Virus record (IMG/VR): IMGVR_UViG_3300028600_000020
Span: 1-23,822 of that record
Reading direction: 5' to 3' (one strand)
Origin: a virus
Length of the DNA stretch: 23,822 nt
The notes under the pieces were generated by a model. That model ran no database searches. It was given only the letters and a program-made list of their open reading frames with translations, and was not told the origin of the DNA. Below, piece by piece: positions 2,131 through 12,382 of this stretch (its first letter is position 1; each line of letters begins with the position of its first letter). The position numbers were made by a program, and so were the translations under genes.

Positions 2131-2668
2131 CTAATTCGTGCGGTTTTGGTTTTCCGTGGAACTGGATAATATTCCCTGCAGGCCCGTCGCTACAATGTTG
2201 CTTAAAACTGACAATGCCATCATCTGGCGTTTTCCATTTCTTCTCGCAAAAATCTGATAAAAACAATTGGTCACCGCCTCGACGACAGCGGTCCATAATT
2301 CCTTCAGGGTCTTCTTGAAAGGCATCCCAAATATGTGAAGTATCTTTCGGCAGCCACATGACGCTTGAATTCGCCGGACAACGGTCCATGAAATCCTCAA
2401 CCATGGTAAAACATCGAGATTTATACCGAAACAATCTACCGTGAACGATTGTGTCTAGGTCGAGATAAAGCGCTGGCCTATATCTTGCATTCCAGGGGGC
2501 GAATAATTCAAGCTTAGCCCACCAGCCTTTGAGATTAGTGCATAGCTCTGTATCGTCTAGTGTGATAACCGATCCGACAAGGGACTCATGTGCGTAAATT
2601 TGTCGTTTTAGGTTAGTGACATACTCTGGCCCGTATTTTCCCCCTTGACGGACAAGAATTATTCTCAT
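2087..2668 (-). CDS. GT8-like glycosyltransferase (GT-A fold)
   Basis: A 193-residue sugar transferase candidate. It carries a metal-binding DxD in YLDLDT (68-73), the second conserved region GGDQLFLS (131-138), and HGKPKP (171-176), which matches the HGxxKPW end motif of GT8 and related GT-A enzymes. No membrane helix or signal is seen, so it should act in the cytoplasm on a nucleotide sugar. It is short compared with bacterial GT8 proteins (about 300 residues), as is usual for phage versions. Start ATG overlaps the FkbM gene stop by ATGA (2665-2668). It sits in a run with a methyltransferase and a sulfotransferase-like gene directly before TerL. The acceptor is unknown and could be a virion protein or a host glycan. 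Confidence 0.82.
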   Translation of the reverse strand: MRIILVRQGGKYGPEYVTNLKRQIYAHESLVGSVITLDDTELCTNLKGWWAKLELFAPWNARYRPALYLDLDTIVHGRLFRYKSRCFTMVEDFMDRCPANSSVMWLPKDTSHIWDAFQEDPEGIMDRCRRGGDQLFLSDFCEKKWKTPDDGIVSFKQHCSDGPAGNIIQFHGKPKPHELDGWVAKLWRADTSG

Positions 2669-3267
2669 TCCGGCACCAAAATAACATCCCTGTGAACTCT
2701 ATCGACCACTTGATAACCTTCTATGGCGTCAGTCCATCCTTGTGGGGCTCCAAAGCGTTCGGAGAGCCCTTTGTCTTCAATCATGAGCACAGGTTTGTGG
2801 GCGCCTAACGTTTCTCTGGCCCCAACAAGGATGTCTGGTTCGTTGCCTTCTGTGTCCAAAATCATCAAGTCACAGGCGGGCAACTTCAAATTGTCAATCG
2901 TTATAACTGGAATATCTTCCTCACCCTTGATAAGCCAGTGCGCCCCAGCGTTATTAGGGACCCTATGCATACCAGCAACACCAGCTTTGTGACCAAGAGC
3001 AGCATTAATATGGTGAATATTATCGACGCCTTGCAGGTTTCTTTCAAGGCAGGCGTAGTTTTCCTTTTCCGGCTCGAAAGTCCAAACAGTTTCAAATTCA
3101 TTTGCCAAGTGTCCCGCCCAAACACCGACATTGCCGCCAGCTTGTACGACACACTTTCTGCTCCGACAAAGCGGTAGTGCTTTGTTCATATCCCTCACAT
3201 GCCTGGGGACAACTGGATGGCATTCTTTGTCAGAATCGGGCCACCAAATACCGTCTATTTGTTTCAT
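2665..3267 (-). CDS. FkbM-family SAM-dependent methyltransferase
   Basis: A 200-residue class I methyltransferase. The SAM-binding motif I is VVQAGGNVGVW (40-50), the acidic motif II is FEPEKENY (64-71), and the FkbM signature MILDTEGNEPDIL lies at 135-147. FkbM proteins generally methylate sugar hydroxyls or related small groups. The start ATG overlaps the preceding sulfotransferase-like stop by four bases (3264-3267) and the end overlaps the GT8-like start, so three surface-chemistry genes are coupled. The inferred role is O-methylation of a glycan made or modified by the neighbouring transferases. The family call is firm; the substrate is not known. Confidence 0.88.
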   Translation of the reverse strand: MKQIDGIWWPDSDKECHPVVPRHVRDMNKALPLCRSRKCVVQAGGNVGVWAGHLANEFETVWTFEPEKENYACLERNLQGVDNIHHINAALGHKAGVAGMHRVPNNAGAHWLIKGEEDIPVITIDNLKLPACDLMILDTEGNEPDILVGARETLGAHKPVLMIEDKGLSERFGAPQGWTDAIEGYQVVDRVHRDVILVPE

Positions 3268-4372: not shown

Positions 4373-4509
4373 TATCGTGTCATCATTTGCCCGACGACAA
4401 GAATATTGGCCGACTGCCTAGTGGTTTCTATTAAAGATATAGGCCCAGAATCAGGCGAAAAAAACCTTGCTGCAAAATAATTCGTTGCAAAATAGACCGG
4501 AGGAAACAT
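4372..4509 (-). CDS. Small 45-residue phage protein with aromatic YFA/RFF motif
   Basis: An ATG at 4509 shares its A with the TAA of the upstream gene, and its own TAA shares one base with the ATG of the DUF115-like gene: two TAATG junctions in a row. The 45-residue product begins MFPPVYFATNYFAARFFSP. That aromatic repeat (NYFAxRFFxP) recurs in short, uncharacterised proteins of tailed phages near fibre genes. The perfect junctions on both sides make this a real gene rather than a gap. Function unknown; a small virion component is likely from its position. Confidence 0.72.
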   Translation of the reverse strand: MFPPVYFATNYFAARFFSPDSGPISLIETTRQSANILVVGQMMTR

Positions 4510-5102
4510 TAAGTATCATCCAATGTTACAGCAGTTCTGTTCCCGGAAGCATCTACCGTTGCGTCAATGCGGTCCTTAGTATCGTTCAGATCACGTATTT
4601 TAACGTTAGTTGTCCCCGCTCCGCTAAGTTTGCCCGCAAGAGACGCGGCAACTAGCCTCATCATTTCTTCAGCAGTAAAACCAGTTTCTATAATATAGCT
4701 CCACAATTCACTTGCTGTCGCGCCTCCGTCAATCAAGCCAGCAGAGTTAGTTGGGATGATCGTGACTTTATCCGTCGGCGTCAGAATGCCATTTTCAACA
4801 TCGAAAATATTATTATTAGAGCCTTCTAGCCGTACACTGTATTGACTTCCGGTATCCTCGAATTGAACACTATAGCTATTTATAAATTCCAACGTGCGGG
4901 CAAAGGTTGTCCCCGCAACTGTCACCTCTCCGTTGTGAGAATATGCATCTGGCATCCAGATATAGGATTCGCCTGCAAGCAGATCCATAACATCTTTGCG
5001 AAATTGATCCGTATCAAGCGAATACAGCGTCCCCGAAACAAATGTTAAATCCGCTTGAGGTATCGAAATCAATCTCGTTGCCGGATCAAGAGTTAGCGCC
5101 AT
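4509..5102 (-). CDS. Conserved phage structural-type protein (197 aa)
   Basis: A 197-residue protein I recognise as a type widespread in environmental tailed phages but without a named function. The N-terminal part contains PQADLTFVSGTLYSLDTDQF and a segment GSNNNIFDVENGILTP, which reads as beta-rich. The C-terminal 60 residues (EEMMRLVAASLAGKLSGAG, then DLNDTKDRIDATVDASGNRT) form a small module that also recurs at the ends of other phage virion proteins. The start follows GGAAG by about seven bases and lies 17 bases inside the upstream coiled-coil gene. It is probably a tail or baseplate part, by analogy with its usual neighbours. Confidence 0.75.
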   Translation of the reverse strand: MALTLDPATRLISIPQADLTFVSGTLYSLDTDQFRKDVMDLLAGESYIWMPDAYSHNGEVTVAGTTFARTLEFINSYSVQFEDTGSQYSVRLEGSNNNIFDVENGILTPTDKVTIIPTNSAGLIDGGATASELWSYIIETGFTAEEMMRLVAASLAGKLSGAGTTNVKIRDLNDTKDRIDATVDASGNRTAVTLDDT

Positions 5103-5421
5103 TCCAATCTTCCGGTGTTGTAGACCCGCCAGCGACCTTCAAGTTCAGACTTGCTGCATAATTTACCTTGAATGCATCGAATTCGCCGCGCAATGTCGAG
5201 TAAAGATTTACAAGTCTGTTATTCTGCTCGTCCTGCTTGGCCATCATGTCTTTCAGGACTTCCATTTCATTCAAGACACCACGAACAGTCGCTTTCTCAC
5301 TGTTTGTTAGCGCGGCGGCCTTTATATCCTGCATCGTGCCGCGCATTTCCTCAAGAGAAAGCAAATCCTCATCTTCTATATGATCCGGTTCTTTACCGGT
5401 AGTTGCGCCTAAATTGCTCAT
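5086..5421 (-). CDS. Coiled-coil hypothetical protein
   Basis: A 111-residue acidic, mostly helical protein. Residues 20-85 have heptad-like spacing (LSLEEMRGTMQDIKAAALTN, then VLNEMEVLKDMMAKQDEQNN), suggesting a coiled coil. There is no cysteine and no membrane segment. It starts three bases after the stop of the upstream tail gene and overlaps the 197-residue gene by 17 bases. A virion linker, tail-assembly or scaffold-type role would suit its shape and location, but no family is recognised. Confidence 0.72.
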   Translation of the reverse strand: MSNLGATTGKEPDHIEDEDLLSLEEMRGTMQDIKAAALTNSEKATVRGVLNEMEVLKDMMAKQDEQNNRLVNLYSTLRGEFDAFKVNYAASLNLKVAGGSTTPEDWNGANS

Positions 5422-5424
5422 GGT

Positions 5425-5901
5425 CTATTCATCCGATTGGAGTGCTAATAATAAATCCGTGCCGCTACTCGCGTCAGCTATACTAATGCCTGCCTCAACA
5501 AAATACGGCGATGATGTAGATTTACGCGCCCATCCTGACAAGCCTTGTGATGCTGGCCATACCTTATCAGATTGAATAACGCCAAGGCTATTTGTTAGTC
5601 CATGCACTGCAACATAAGAAACAATAGGCGTTCCTGTCGCTGGTGATGATAACCCGCTGTCCACACTATAAGTGAATGTATCCGTATCTGTAACCGTTAT
5701 GCTCGCTACTTTATTATACCCATCCGGTTGTGCACCCCTTATCACGATTTGATCACCAGTCACAAGACCATGCGCCGTTGTAGTGTCGCACGTTGCTGTA
5801 CCGCTCGATTGTGTCAAACTAGTAATGGAAGCTTGATAAGGAAACCCAGAACCACCGCCATTATCAGATGTTTCTAAAAACACTCGTGCATTCTGCAACA
5901 T
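5425..5901 (-). CDS. C-terminal part of the beta-helix tail protein, separated by an in-frame TGA
   Basis: 158 residues from ATG 5901 to the TAG at 5425. The same frame is open further upstream for 27 more codons, up to a single TGA at 5983-5985, and that TGA ends the 450-residue gene in the same frame. The intervening codons read as good protein (SAGVDVTIVADPATTKVTVE) and merge into ITVTDTD-type beta-sandwich repeats, with a HGLVTGDQIVIRGA segment common in phage fibres. ATG 5901 has no Shine-Dalgarno site, and the sequence before it continues the same fold. It is therefore most likely the C-terminal third of one 636-residue protein, either interrupted by mutation or reached by readthrough. 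Independent expression is possible but less likely. Confidence 0.7.
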   Translation of the reverse strand: MLQNARVFLETSDNGGGSGFPYQASITSLTQSSGTATCDTTTAHGLVTGDQIVIRGAQPDGYNKVASITVTDTDTFTYSVDSGLSSPATGTPIVSYVAVHGLTNSLGVIQSDKVWPASQGLSGWARKSTSSPYFVEAGISIADASSGTDLLLALQSDE

Positions 5902-5982
5902 GGCACCAGTGCTGTCTTCAACAGTGACCTTTGTTGTTGCTGGATCGGCTACTATCGTTACATCAACACCAGCAGAATAGTA

Positions 5983-5985
5983 TCA
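5983..5985 (-). other. In-frame TGA separating two parts of one tail gene
   Basis: Read on the minus strand, the codons around it are AAT TTT TGA TAC TAT. There is no frameshift: codons before and after belong to one frame, 7335 to 5425. TGA is a normal stop elsewhere in this window, since many neighbouring genes end in ATGA overlaps. Recoding of every TGA as an amino acid is therefore excluded. The options are a nonsense substitution, a base-call error, or leaky readthrough giving a long minor form. Confidence 0.8.
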
Positions 5986-7335
5986 AAAATTCCCTGTGCA
6001 GCCTACAAGATTGACTGTAAGCGTTCCTGTGGTATCTCTAAATGCAAATGTTTCATTACCAGCTTCCGCTGTAGGAGAAGTGTTCTCGCTTGCAGAAAAG
6101 TCAGTCCCAAATGCGCAATTCCTTAGAGTAATGCTAGATGTCGGGATATTCGCACCAAAATCAATTGCATGATGCGCTGTTCCTGAAGTTTTTGAAATTG
6201 TCAAATCGTCCAATTCACCATCCGGGTCAACATTTAAATCGTAGGTAATCACGCCGCCGTTAGCTGCCCCAGTGTATTCACTAAATGTGCCGCCTGATAG
6301 ATCACAGCCATTCGCCACAATCTCGTCATTGCCGATAAAAGTACAGTTTGTCCAATCATCGCCAGTATCGTCAGATGTCTCAATGCCTTGATCGAATCCG
6401 ATAAAAGTGCAACCAATCATATTGCAAACAGTCAAATCAGCTCCATTGCCATCAAAAGACGCCGACGCAGCGGTAGGCACAACAAAAGTAGATGCTGTAA
6501 ACGATGCTTCGCAATTCGTTGCAGTGCTAGAGCCAATTATGCTGAAACGATAATAATTCGTTGAGGAAAGACCGCGATCCTCCCATGAATAAGTTACGTT
6601 TGTTTCTTCCCAAAATTGATCGGAAGCGCTTGCAGAATTACCAATCGTCAAATTGCCCTGAATTCCGTAAACACCCGCGCCCAGCTCGCGAATTACACCA
6701 TAAGCCTGCTGGTTTCCCGTTCCACGGTCAACAACAGCCGCCTCGGCTCCGTTGCCTGCCGCGCCAGAAGTAGTGCCACCTTGCATAACCACATCATCGC
6801 CAGGATTGGCCCAACGGATAATGTCCCAAAAACAGTTCTCAACACCGCCCACAGATTTGACGATAGTGGTAAAATACGTTCCAACCTGAGTGATTGCCGC
6901 TTCGTTTAAATTTCCCTCTGTTCCAGCTAAAGCTGTATTGTTGGCGGGCTTATTGCCAAGGTCAAGAATGAAGCAAGACCATTCAATTGGTCCAGACTCA
7001 TGACGGAATCCAGTTACATCCGAACCACCAACATGATAAGCAATTCGATTTGTGCCGTCACCTACTTGAATTGCAGCGCCGCCATTAGCGGTTGTATCCA
7101 TCGTTCCAAAAGGACGCATCCAGACGAATAAAGAACCGTTAGACCAATCGTCAGATGTTATCGTGTCATAAGCATCCTCAGTAGTATTGCTGACATTCAT
7201 CCCCATACAGTTGGTGGATTCAATGGGGGATGGTGAAGACGAAAAAGCCGTGGGACCGTCCGTAGCCGTCCAATCGCCTGTATTGTCACTTTCGTTAACA
7301 ATGGTGCGATTGTCTGTTGGAAAAGTTGTCGTCAT
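5983..7335 (-). CDS. Tail/fibre-type protein with beta-helix-like repeats (N-terminal 450 aa)
   Basis: A 450-residue virion-type protein that is cysteine- and asparagine-rich. The first half resembles a lectin-like sandwich (SLFVWMRPFGTMDTTANGG). From about residue 300 it has short repeated strands such as NMIGCTFIGFDQGIE, WTNCTFIGNDEI and LRNCAFGTDF. These look like rungs of a right-handed beta-helix, as in phage tailspikes and pectate-lyase folds. It ends ...VNLVGCTGNF at a TGA after which the frame stays open to 5425. Related phage proteins I recall continue through this point. Start ATG overlaps the SPOUT-like gene by ATGA (7332-7335). It lies in the middle of the virion operon. Receptor binding or glycan cleavage is possible; no catalytic residues are identifiable. 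Confidence 0.82.
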   Translation of the reverse strand: MTTTFPTDNRTIVNESDNTGDWTATDGPTAFSSSPSPIESTNCMGMNVSNTTEDAYDTITSDDWSNGSLFVWMRPFGTMDTTANGGAAIQVGDGTNRIAYHVGGSDVTGFRHESGPIEWSCFILDLGNKPANNTALAGTEGNLNEAAITQVGTYFTTIVKSVGGVENCFWDIIRWANPGDDVVMQGGTTSGAAGNGAEAAVVDRGTGNQQAYGVIRELGAGVYGIQGNLTIGNSASASDQFWEETNVTYSWEDRGLSSTNYYRFSIIGSSTATNCEASFTASTFVVPTAASASFDGNGADLTVCNMIGCTFIGFDQGIETSDDTGDDWTNCTFIGNDEIVANGCDLSGGTFSEYTGAANGGVITYDLNVDPDGELDDLTISKTSGTAHHAIDFGANIPTSSITLRNCAFGTDFSASENTSPTAEAGNETFAFRDTTGTLTVNLVGCTGNF

Positions 7336-7733: not shown

Positions 7734-8161
7734 TTCTGCCAGGACCCATAATGCTTATTAACGAAGGGTAACGAGAAAATAGAACGCAAATCAATTTGCT
7801 TTAGGTCATACGGACCATAATCCTTGTCCCCTACAGGCCCCCAATCGGTAATTCTAGGGTCGGCACATTTGTCAACGCAGATAAAATCGACATCCATCAT
7901 CATATCAAGCGTGTGCAGGGTATGCCAGGCGCCTATAAAGAGCGCGTATGGAAATGGCTCTGTTTTAGGATTCTTTCTTCGCGCCCATGACTTCCAGACA
8001 TCAGAAGGATGGCGCAATGGAGAAATGATTTTCTTGTCTTTTACACGCTCTAACAAGGCATCCCAGGGGCAAGTTGTATGAATATACTTCTTGACCCCGA
8101 GACGCTCTTGCAAAAATCGCGTGCCTGTATGCGGTACCGAAACAATAATGGGCTCACGCAT
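7730..8161 (-). CDS. Second sulfotransferase-like protein
   Basis: 143 residues from ATG 8161. The frame extends upstream to 8248, but that part lies within the end of the 716-residue gene, and the conserved fold starts right at 8161 with MREPIIVSVPHTGTRFL. VPHTGTRFL (9-17) matches the 5'-PSB loop of sulfotransferases in its phage/eukaryote-like variant. PLRHPSDVWKSWARR (48-62) matches the 3'-PSB region, where R and S contact PAPS. The start lies 8 bases upstream of the end of the structural gene, so it is coupled. It is not a close copy of the 3264-3740 protein: the loops differ. A sulfotransferase fold is likely; the acceptor is unknown. Confidence 0.75.
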   Translation of the reverse strand: MREPIIVSVPHTGTRFLQERLGVKKYIHTTCPWDALLERVKDKKIISPLRHPSDVWKSWARRKNPKTEPFPYALFIGAWHTLHTLDMMMDVDFICVDKCADPRITDWGPVGDKDYGPYDLKQIDLRSIFSLPFVNKHYGSWQK

Positions 8162-10304
8162 CAGTAATGCGATTAATTGACGCTGATCCCCCATTCGTTC
8201 CCATAACACCCGTGGTTTCCGCTGTCTGAATTGGCGAGGCACCGCCATTTCTTACCCTTACAAAGTGCGTTCGATCAGCGTCATAAACGTAGTTGAATGT
8301 TTCATCAGCGCCGCCAGCATTTGCCTTATCTACATAACTAATAAAAGCATTGTTAGAGGATGTTGCATTATTAGTGCTGAAATCATGCAGGGTTATAGTG
8401 AAATCATCTGTGCCCAAATCTCTTGCTGAGAATGGATGCCGAGAATAAAGACCATCGTCACGCTCAATCCTAATTGTACCAGATGACGGGCAGTCCGCAG
8501 GAATAGCTGCAACCGAAATCGTTGTAACGTTAGTTGCCGAGTATGTGGCATTCAATGCCATTTGCGTGAAATCAATATCGCCAGCGTTATTGTTAGTGCA
8601 AAGCACGCGGTCGCCGTTCTCCGCCCCAGAGATCGTAAACGTGACATTGTTCGGCGGCGTAATTGCTGTATTGCTTAGATCAAAGAAGGTGTCCGCCGCT
8701 GCGGTATCGCCAGCCACCATGCCAAGACCATAAGCACCGATCAGAGCTGAGCCAGTAGAAACGCCAACAAACGGCGTTGAGACTGTCCGCTCAGTTGCGG
8801 CAGCATCACAAGTATAATAATCGGTATGATCAGCAGGATCATAAAGGCGGGTGTTGTCGATCATGGAAACGCCCTTAGTAACCTGACCATAGAACACACC
8901 ATTGGCACCTTGGTCGTCAATCGCAAATAGCGCTATCTCACCCGCCGCGTTTTGAATCTCTTCACCAGTGGGCGCTGCCGAAGTCGTGGCCTGGGCTCCA
9001 GAAGTTTGACCAGTAAAGCTCTCGGTATTCCCGACCGTTCCTTCCTCAACATCGATAATTAGTGATGTATCGGTGCCATCTACTGATAATACGCGGCCCT
9101 TCCATACCGGCGTTGCCGTATCCTCGTGAACCGCCTCGCCAACAGTAAACGGACCGCCCGTAACCGTGCCGTGATTTACATAAGTCCCATAAACGAATTT
9201 GTCATTTGTGAGAGCTGCCGGAGCACCGGTCTCGGTATCGTATGTCACCGAATGGGTAACACCACGATGCAACTCACCATTCTGGCCGTTGAGCGTTGCC
9301 GACGAACTATCCATCGATTCCGCCTTGAGATATTCGTAAAACGTATTGATGGTTTGCGCGCCGCGCGTCCATTCCGAATAATATTCTTCGTCCGTTCCGT
9401 CGCCCGAAATATCAATACTGCGGAAACCTTCAGTATTCGTAATGTCTGTTATGGCATCAATCGTTGCCCACGCAGTTGTATTATTCAGATCAGTCGAATC
9501 CGTTAAGGCCAGCACATTGTTGCCTTGTGCTGTGCCATTGATCTTAAATTCTGCATATGTGTTTCCATAGCGTCTTGTACTGCCAATCAAGCGCCTGCGG
9601 TCGATGTCAACACCATTATCTCGCGTCTTGACCATGAACCGGTGGCTAATACCTTGGGCAGCATCACCATTCAGCGGAACGGCAATATGATGCACATCAC
9701 CACTATCCCAGTCACTTTCGGTGCCGTTATATAGAACCCCGGTCACCGTTGTGGAATCATTGTCAGTGATGAGAGCTTGTGAGCCATCGGTAATATTTTT
9801 GATCGTATAACCAATAAATTCATCAACAGTAGCGCCAAGTGTCGAATCCGTCAAAACAGCCGCATCTGCCGCGCCAGTGTGTGTGCCAGCTTCATGGCCA
9901 TAATTCCAAAAATCATCAGCAATCACTGAGCCATCTTGGGTGATCTGAATATGCGCATTGGGCGGACCAAAGTTTACAATGCCATCCCATCGCTCTTCGG
10001 TCGTCCCCGACCCTTGGATGATCGTGCCATCGTAGAGATGCTCAATTGCGGTTGCATCAACGTTGAACCCATTGACGAGCGTAATAATGTTGTCAGTCGA
10101 GCGGTTCGACGGGTTCTTGTCAATGATGTCCAGTTCATCGTCATTGGTGAATGCCTCGTCATAGGCAAACGCCTGCAACCATCTGTGAAATTGAATAACC
10201 GTTGCGTAGGACGGCGTGCCGCCACTTAATGTGTGGTCATCCCCTATATATCGTATGTTGCCTGTTGCCCTGTCGATTGACCAGTCGGCATCTTCCATAG
10301 CCAT
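8154..10304 (-). CDS. Large virion/tail structural protein (716 aa)
   Basis: A 716-residue beta-rich protein of low charge, with many Asp-, Asn-, Thr- and Gly-rich strands. The N-terminal region (TGNIRYIGDDHTLSGG, TVIQFHRWLQAFAYDE, DNIITLVNGFNVDATAIEHL) and following segments such as GIVNFGPPNAHIQI match a protein type frequent in environmental phages, where it lies among tail genes. No enzymatic motif, signal or membrane helix is present. ATG 10304 has a good GGGGAG site nine bases ahead. It follows the coiled-coil gene by 23 bases and overlaps the next gene by 8 bases. A tail tube, fibre or appendage role is inferred only from composition and company. Confidence 0.84.
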   Translation of the reverse strand: MAMEDADWSIDRATGNIRYIGDDHTLSGGTPSYATVIQFHRWLQAFAYDEAFTNDDELDIIDKNPSNRSTDNIITLVNGFNVDATAIEHLYDGTIIQGSGTTEERWDGIVNFGPPNAHIQITQDGSVIADDFWNYGHEAGTHTGAADAAVLTDSTLGATVDEFIGYTIKNITDGSQALITDNDSTTVTGVLYNGTESDWDSGDVHHIAVPLNGDAAQGISHRFMVKTRDNGVDIDRRRLIGSTRRYGNTYAEFKINGTAQGNNVLALTDSTDLNNTTAWATIDAITDITNTEGFRSIDISGDGTDEEYYSEWTRGAQTINTFYEYLKAESMDSSSATLNGQNGELHRGVTHSVTYDTETGAPAALTNDKFVYGTYVNHGTVTGGPFTVGEAVHEDTATPVWKGRVLSVDGTDTSLIIDVEEGTVGNTESFTGQTSGAQATTSAAPTGEEIQNAAGEIALFAIDDQGANGVFYGQVTKGVSMIDNTRLYDPADHTDYYTCDAAATERTVSTPFVGVSTGSALIGAYGLGMVAGDTAAADTFFDLSNTAITPPNNVTFTISGAENGDRVLCTNNNAGDIDFTQMALNATYSATNVTTISVAAIPADCPSSGTIRIERDDGLYSRHPFSARDLGTDDFTITLHDFSTNNATSSNNAFISYVDKANAGGADETFNYVYDADRTHFVRVRNGGASPIQTAETTGVMGTNGGSASINRITDA

Positions 10305-10759: not shown

Positions 10760-11068
10760 CTATTTAGTCTCCGTGACATATGCCGTTCCACTGGCACTAT
10801 TTTGAATGAAGGCAATTTTCATTCCTGAATGAATTGAAACATACTCCACTACCTTCGCAGGCAAAAAGGTGTCGCCCGTTGTGGCGGTAGGTGAGGGCCC
10901 TATTTTATAATGGCAATCAGTCGTACTAACAATTCTTATAATCTTAGTCGGGCTAGCCATGCCGTTTGCAATGGCCGCAGATGTCCCGGTAACTGAAATT
11001 GTTTGCGTTGGTCCCGGAGAAATAACCGGGATTGGATATCCTAAATTATCTACCGCCAGCCTAGTCAT
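10760..11068 (-). CDS. Small beta-rich structural protein
   Basis: 102 residues, with almost no acidic residues in the first half and strands such as TQTISVTGTSAAIANG and IIRIVSTTDCHYKIG. The pattern is a single beta sandwich, like small decoration or fibre-tip proteins of tailed phages, which often carry the phrase CHYKIGxxPTAT. The start overlaps the end of the glycosyltransferase gene by eight bases (11061-11068), and the stop abuts the coiled-coil gene. A decoration or adaptor protein is the likely role by resemblance. Confidence 0.75.
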   Translation of the reverse strand: MTRLAVDNLGYPIPVISPGPTQTISVTGTSAAIANGMASPTKIIRIVSTTDCHYKIGPSPTATTGDTFLPAKVVEYVSIHSGMKIAFIQNSASGTAYVTETK

Positions 11069-11678
11069 AAGAGGTAATGCCCCAATGCTTTAATCTAACA
11101 GAGGGGTCCATGGTTATTTTAATTCCGTTTTCTCTAGCAAGTTCACAAAAGAAATAATCCTCGCTCAAAAGAATACCATCCCTTATAGGTGTTTGATATA
11201 ATGCTGGAATATTGGGAAGTTCATTTTCGTATTTTGGAACCTTTTTACTTAGCTTTTCGATGACTTCCCTCTTTATCATCATGAAACCAGTTCCTGCATA
11301 GTCAACTTCAATTGGTTTTTCAAATTGATCCAGATCTGTTACCAATTTTCCGTTTACCCATGCCGCGTATTTCGAATCCTCCGTTTTCATCCTGTATACA
11401 CCCACTGCAATATCGGCGTCCAGGTTCCAGAGTTTTGCTACGTCCTCTGGAGTAAATTCAATATCCGCATCCAACCACATCATATGAGAATGTTCGGTTT
11501 TCAAAAATTCCGCCGTCATACCCATTCTGGCGCGGTGGACGAGAGATTCATTCCACCTGATAAGCCAATCGTGGTCTAGCCCTGTTGCGTTTAAAGCATC
11601 TTTTAATTGCATGCAGGACTTAAAGTGCGGAGCGAACACCTGCCCACCATATGCTGGCGTGCAAAATAATATACTCAT
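11061..11678 (-). CDS. GT-A glycosyltransferase (GT2/Anp1-like)
   Basis: 205 residues from ATG 11678. A longer frame to 11738 exists but lies inside the upstream gene, whereas ATG 11678 overlaps that gene's stop by ATGA. The N-terminus SILFCTPAYGGQV is the first strand and nucleotide-sugar loop. MMWLDADIEF (66-75) contains the DxD metal site. DYAGTGFMMIKREVI (126-140) and LSEDYFFCELA (171-181) match the acceptor region and the ED catalytic-base motif. LKHWG closes the fold. No membrane anchor. It sits alone among virion genes, about 7 kb from the other transferases in this operon. Attachment of a sugar to a fibre or capsid protein is a reasonable inference. Confidence 0.85.
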   Translation of the reverse strand: MSILFCTPAYGGQVFAPHFKSCMQLKDALNATGLDHDWLIRWNESLVHRARMGMTAEFLKTEHSHMMWLDADIEFTPEDVAKLWNLDADIAVGVYRMKTEDSKYAAWVNGKLVTDLDQFEKPIEVDYAGTGFMMIKREVIEKLSKKVPKYENELPNIPALYQTPIRDGILLSEDYFFCELARENGIKITMDPSVRLKHWGITSYD

Positions 11679-12382
11679 GCAGCTACAATAGATGCAACGC
11701 TCATTTGCGATTGAGTTCCATTGCCAGAAAGAGTACAAGAAACCGTTCTACCCGTGTCGGTAGAGGTTACGTTTTCTTTCGTTGCACTATATTGCTCTTG
11801 TCCAGTCTGCATAAATGTCTCAATATCAGGCGGATCATCAATGCCCACCCATGTCATTGTGCGATTCAACCCACGCTGCTCGACGCCGCCAATAAGAACA
11901 CCGCCAGAAACAGTATCAATTGTTCCAGACATTAAAGAAGCAGCCCCTATCGAGACATCAAGGCTGTCATGCAATGAAATTCCGTCAGCCCCTGTAATTG
12001 TATAGACAGCGACACCCGCCGCCCTGGCAGTAGTAGAGACATCAAAAGCAATTGTTGCCGTTGTGCCAGTTGTTACTTTGCGATAATAAATCGCACACAT
12101 ACTTGCCGCCGCCGATGGTGTTGTAGTGTCAAATGCGATAAGTTCCGTTGCAGCGGAGCCGCCTATAGTAACATTTGATAGAGGCAACGCCGCACCCGCA
12201 GAAGACCCGCCAGAGAACAAAACAGCCATTACATGTCTATCTGATGTTGCTGTTCCTATTCCTAAACTTGAAAAACTATAAGAAGTAGTATCGCTTGTAG
12301 ATACCGCTGTAGACTGATAGGTACTAGTTAAAACAGCGCCTGAAGCGCCAGAAGTGGCTTGTCTCATGCGAGTTGCAAGCAT
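11675..12382 (-). CDS. Beta-sandwich virion protein (235 aa)
   Basis: 235 residues, very rich in Ser, Thr, Ala and Gly, with few charges. Segments such as SNVTIGGSAATELIAFDTT, CAIYYRKVTTGTTATIAFDV and ISLHDSLDVSIGA look like the strands of a jelly-roll or immunoglobulin-like sandwich, as in phage fibre and decoration proteins. Its start shares one base with the stop of the gene upstream (TAATG at 12380-12384), and its stop overlaps the glycosyltransferase start by ATGA. Coupling to a glycosyltransferase makes it a candidate acceptor (inference). No named family assigned. Confidence 0.78.
   Translation of the reverse strand: MLATRMRQATSGASGAVLTSTYQSTAVSTSDTTSYSFSSLGIGTATSDRHVMAVLFSGGSSAGAALPLSNVTIGGSAATELIAFDTTTPSAAASMCAIYYRKVTTGTTATIAFDVSTTARAAGVAVYTITGADGISLHDSLDVSIGAASLMSGTIDTVSGGVLIGGVEQRGLNRTMTWVGIDDPPDIETFMQTGQEQYSATKENVTSTDTGRTVSCTLSGNGTQSQMSVASIVAA

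Follow-up and report, generated by a model that had tools for sequence, protein, structure and literature searches.

An in-frame TGA within a beta-helix tail gene

Does a single in-frame TGA inside a phage tail gene divide it into two proteins, does it yield fibres of two lengths, or does it mark a broken gene? The question is raised by the virus record IMGVR_UViG_3300028600_000020. The stretch analysed here, hereafter called the window, spans 23,822 bases, and no near-identical relative was retrieved. Its genes include one for a terminase (PF03237 and PF17289) as well as a series of structural genes encoded on the minus strand. Among the structural genes are also one resembling an FkbM methyltransferase (2665-3267) and one resembling a glycosyltransferase (11061-11738), possibly engaged in sugar modification.

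The original prediction described two open reading frames (ORFs) of 450 and 158 codons that share a frame and are separated by 27 open codons, and this arrangement was confirmed on the minus strand. The 450 codons upstream of the TGA (5986..7335, minus strand; ORF including stop 7335-5983) encode an N-terminal region and a beta-helix. The TGA itself is codon 451 (5983..5985, minus strand). It is followed by the 27 open codons that reach to the next ATG (5902..5982, minus strand), which are conserved as coding, and by a 158-codon remainder of the C-terminal domain (5425..5901, minus strand), whose ATG at 5901 is unconserved in relatives. All these parts constitute a tail beta-helix gene of 636 codons including one internal TGA (5425..7335, minus strand), as delimited by the relatives, where the protein is mostly a single ORF of about 600-660 amino acids, and by an AlphaFold model. 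Two downstream genes encoding 111 and 197 amino acids (4509..5421, minus strand) are kept beside the tail gene in relatives. The neighbouring gene for a 716-aa structural protein (8154..10304, minus strand) is intact, terminates with TGA at the position where its relatives end, and was used as synteny marker.

At local composition, the probability that the 185 codons following the TGA stay open by chance is about 1.5e-5, so the downstream frame represents real coding sequence. The codon signature does not change across the TGA, and all three stretches (before the TGA, the gap, and after it) score best in their own frame when codon usage of the other genes is taken as reference.

The read-through protein was modelled by AlphaFold with Trp placed at the TGA, using 18 sequences, and the mean pLDDT was 81. 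In this model the TGA directly follows strand 438-444, where the helix part ends, a position that may explain why two protein-like halves were perceived in the original prediction. No significant Pfam match was obtained for the window tail protein, and the one match in PHROGs (PHROG 9998, unknown function) covers the C-terminal domain. This domain (window 5428-5830, residues 503-636), in relatives or in the model, displays weak resemblance, in profile and in fold, to the E1 FCCH domain and the phage endosialidase beta-barrel.

Relatives are open at the TGA site

Relatives were gathered with the read-through protein as query and then with an alignment. The resulting set comprises 38 related viral loci, 32 of them distinct by their last 120 residues. 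A stop codon at the TGA site occurs in none of these loci, as far as can be judged from searches that may omit near-identical records. The aligned residue is mostly Ser, Thr or Gly and never Trp or Cys, and the ORF continues past the site in all 38 loci. The statement in the original prediction that proteins of this type run through this point therefore proved correct, and the arrangement that it had named as contrary evidence, homologues ending here with a separately started downstream gene, was found nowhere in the set.

The closest relative is an uncultured virus (IMGVR_UViG_3300027881_000055, hereafter L009) with the same gene order around the tail gene. Its tail ORF is uninterrupted and 639 residues long. 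The two proteins are 69% identical over residues 1-636 and 83% identical over residues 201-450, and at the site itself the window reads GNF-stop-YYSAGV where L009 reads GNFGFYSAGV, with Gly in place of the TGA. Whole-length similarity and conserved neighbours both place the window gene in the fused beta-helix tail protein family of its phage group; the continuous ORF typical of the family is interrupted by one TGA, and the gene is a broken member.

In five loci (L035, L036, L037, L038 and L041), similarity to the window protein fades near residues 447-476, while the ORF continues for 82-127 residues to a different end. There is thus no protein stop at the site in these loci either, and judging by the alignments their C-terminal domain seems to have been exchanged as a module. 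In two other members, a shift in reading frame disrupts the corresponding tail gene (L012 around 2230-2355, L034 around 5015-5076), away from the position of the window's TGA; scattered isolated breaks hence do occur in such assemblies.

Bacterial and archaeal genomes were also scanned and yielded no relative. Among phage records the sole match was EBPR podovirus 1 gp29, where 64 residues of the C-terminal domain aligned. When the sequence around the TGA site was searched in degenerate form, nothing beyond L009 was recovered. One further locus (L007) was the only hit when the TGA and its flanking sequence were searched as a pattern; it shares neither protein nor DNA similarity with the window and was rejected as a chance match.

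The part downstream of the TGA is undecayed

Between residues 452 and 636, the window and L009 differ in 63 columns. Other relatives agree with the window in 28 of these and with L009 in 29, which means that the window branch is not longer after the TGA, unlike what long loss of function would produce. Comparison with L009 is near saturation at synonymous sites, and pN and pS were used instead of dN/dS. For the 27-codon gap they amount to 0.13 and 0.62, respectively; purifying selection extends over the gap. An undecayed downstream part is compatible with a stop that arose very lately or is not real, and also with one that is read through. It is therefore the absence of the stop from all relatives that does most of the deciding.

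A probable nonsense mutation or miscalled base

We conclude that, very probably, one continuous ancestral gene was hit once by a nonsense mutation or by a miscalled base, and that no conserved or programmed device is involved. As far as the compared sequences go, three observations establish the ground for this reading: the ancestry of the gene is continuous, the stop is found in the window record only, and the part behind it is undecayed. The last two make a recent nonsense mutation or an assembly base error the best reading, and we infer an event that is either young or an artefact.

On this reading, the gene is a single 636-codon unit for a tail fibre or spike, composed of an N-terminal region, a beta-helix and, at its C-terminus, a beta-rich domain. 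A single nonsense codon presumably struck it at the end of the beta-helix, either because the sampled phage mutated very recently or because one base of the metagenome assembly is wrong. If the stop is real, ribosomes would halt at residue 450 and, barring low-level suppression, the virion would carry a fibre lacking the C-terminal domain. Nothing observed speaks directly against this reading. A true mutation and a base error look alike in sequence; moreover, the only close relative is 69% identical, and the same picture would result wherever along the recent portion of the window branch the event took place. The original prediction had left three readings side by side: a nonsense mutant, a wrong base and UGA readthrough. 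The first two are upheld by the 38 open loci, whereas the third loses ground for reasons given below. The finding is an ordinary one. The interrupted pair should be annotated as one broken gene, not as two ORFs, and when a phage gene assembled from a metagenome contains a lone in-frame stop, this should not be taken as evidence of recoding.

Alternative readings of the TGA

Could the gene have split, so that two proteins are translated separately and the second starts from the ATG at 5901? The 158-codon ORF does possess this ATG, and all 185 codons are open, but we regard such a split as improbable. The original prediction had noted that the ATG has no ribosome site, and indeed no Shine-Dalgarno-like sequence is found near it (the upstream sequence is CACTGTTGAAGACAGCACTGGTGCC); as an argument this is weak, several other window genes also being devoid of a clear one. 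Other evidence points in the same direction. Met is present at the internal start in no aligned relative, L009 included, and none of the 38 loci has separate genes at the site. The 27 codons ahead of the ATG are conserved as protein. In the AlphaFold model the start lies between strands 468-474 and 484-490, so that its product would miss the first strand of the C-terminal domain. The ATG at 5901 is not an ancestral start.

Programmed UGA readthrough, giving a major short and a minor long fibre in the manner in which A1 extends the coat of Q-beta-like phages, is in our judgement very unlikely. It is consistent with a downstream frame that is intact, in phase and coding-like; however, the constraint past the stop is expected to the same degree if a fused gene has lately acquired a nonsense mutation. 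Conservation of the stop together with its extension among relatives would be the mark of a programmed event, and the stop is missing in every relative (0 of 38 loci), including L009. Neither a leaky context nor a stimulatory RNA structure was recognized. A U stands directly after the UGA; in bacteria this favours termination and makes a strong stop context, and the downstream RNA folds no better than shuffled sequences (z -0.53). A tRNA gene, and hence a suppressor tRNA, was sought in the window and is absent from it. A literature search of partial coverage returned no described case of such readthrough in tailed phages and no UGA readthrough tied to a phage minor capsid protein, and a broader query on tail fibres matched solely work on alternative genetic codes. 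The fibre of two lengths envisaged in the original prediction thus finds no support. If true, it would be an unusual means by which a tailed DNA phage varies the part that binds its receptor. We likewise give very little credence to a related scenario, in which the lineage lately gained a UGA at the boundary between the beta-helix and the C-terminal domain, and background readthrough would produce mostly short and few long fibres, both lengths occurring on virions.

Still less probable is decoding of TGA as an amino acid, be it Trp under a reassigned code or selenocysteine, whose sole support is the open frame past the TGA. The original prediction held that TGA is a true stop elsewhere, and this was substantiated: it ends 16 of the 29 other minus-strand ORFs treated as genes, some of them at the residue where relatives end. 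The latter concerns the 716-aa and 133-aa neighbours, and these orthologous TGA ends refute general reassignment. Trp is regularly encoded by TGG (111 codons), and the residue aligned in relatives is mainly Ser, Thr or Gly, never Trp. Selenoproteins are recognized by Cys in homologues at the UGA and a SECIS element after it; homologues have no Cys there, the window gave no Rfam RNA match, and the RNA fold is not unusual.

Ribosomal frameshifting to the long form on the U run before the TGA (AAU UUU UGA) can practically be dismissed, and a single frameshift is refuted by the sequence: despite the five Us ahead of the GA of the stop, both parts already share one frame, and the other two frames reach stops within about 9 codons of the site and cannot join the halves.

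Comparison with known systems

Over the beta-helix, the window protein bears weak fold resemblance to the HK620 beta-helix tailspike (PDB 2X85 and others; Foldseek E about 3e-3). TM-scores of about 0.2 and 7-9% identity to tailspikes of this type do not support membership among them. The tail protein of L009 matches in length, gene order, beta-helix and C-terminal domain, but it differs in its continuous ORF, in Gly standing for the TGA and in having no Met at the internal start. The A1 protein of Q-beta is a readthrough form of the coat protein and an established part of the virus. The window gene is similar to it in that a UGA is followed by an in-frame extension. In Q-beta, however, readthrough is established, whereas the stop in the window is unique to one record.
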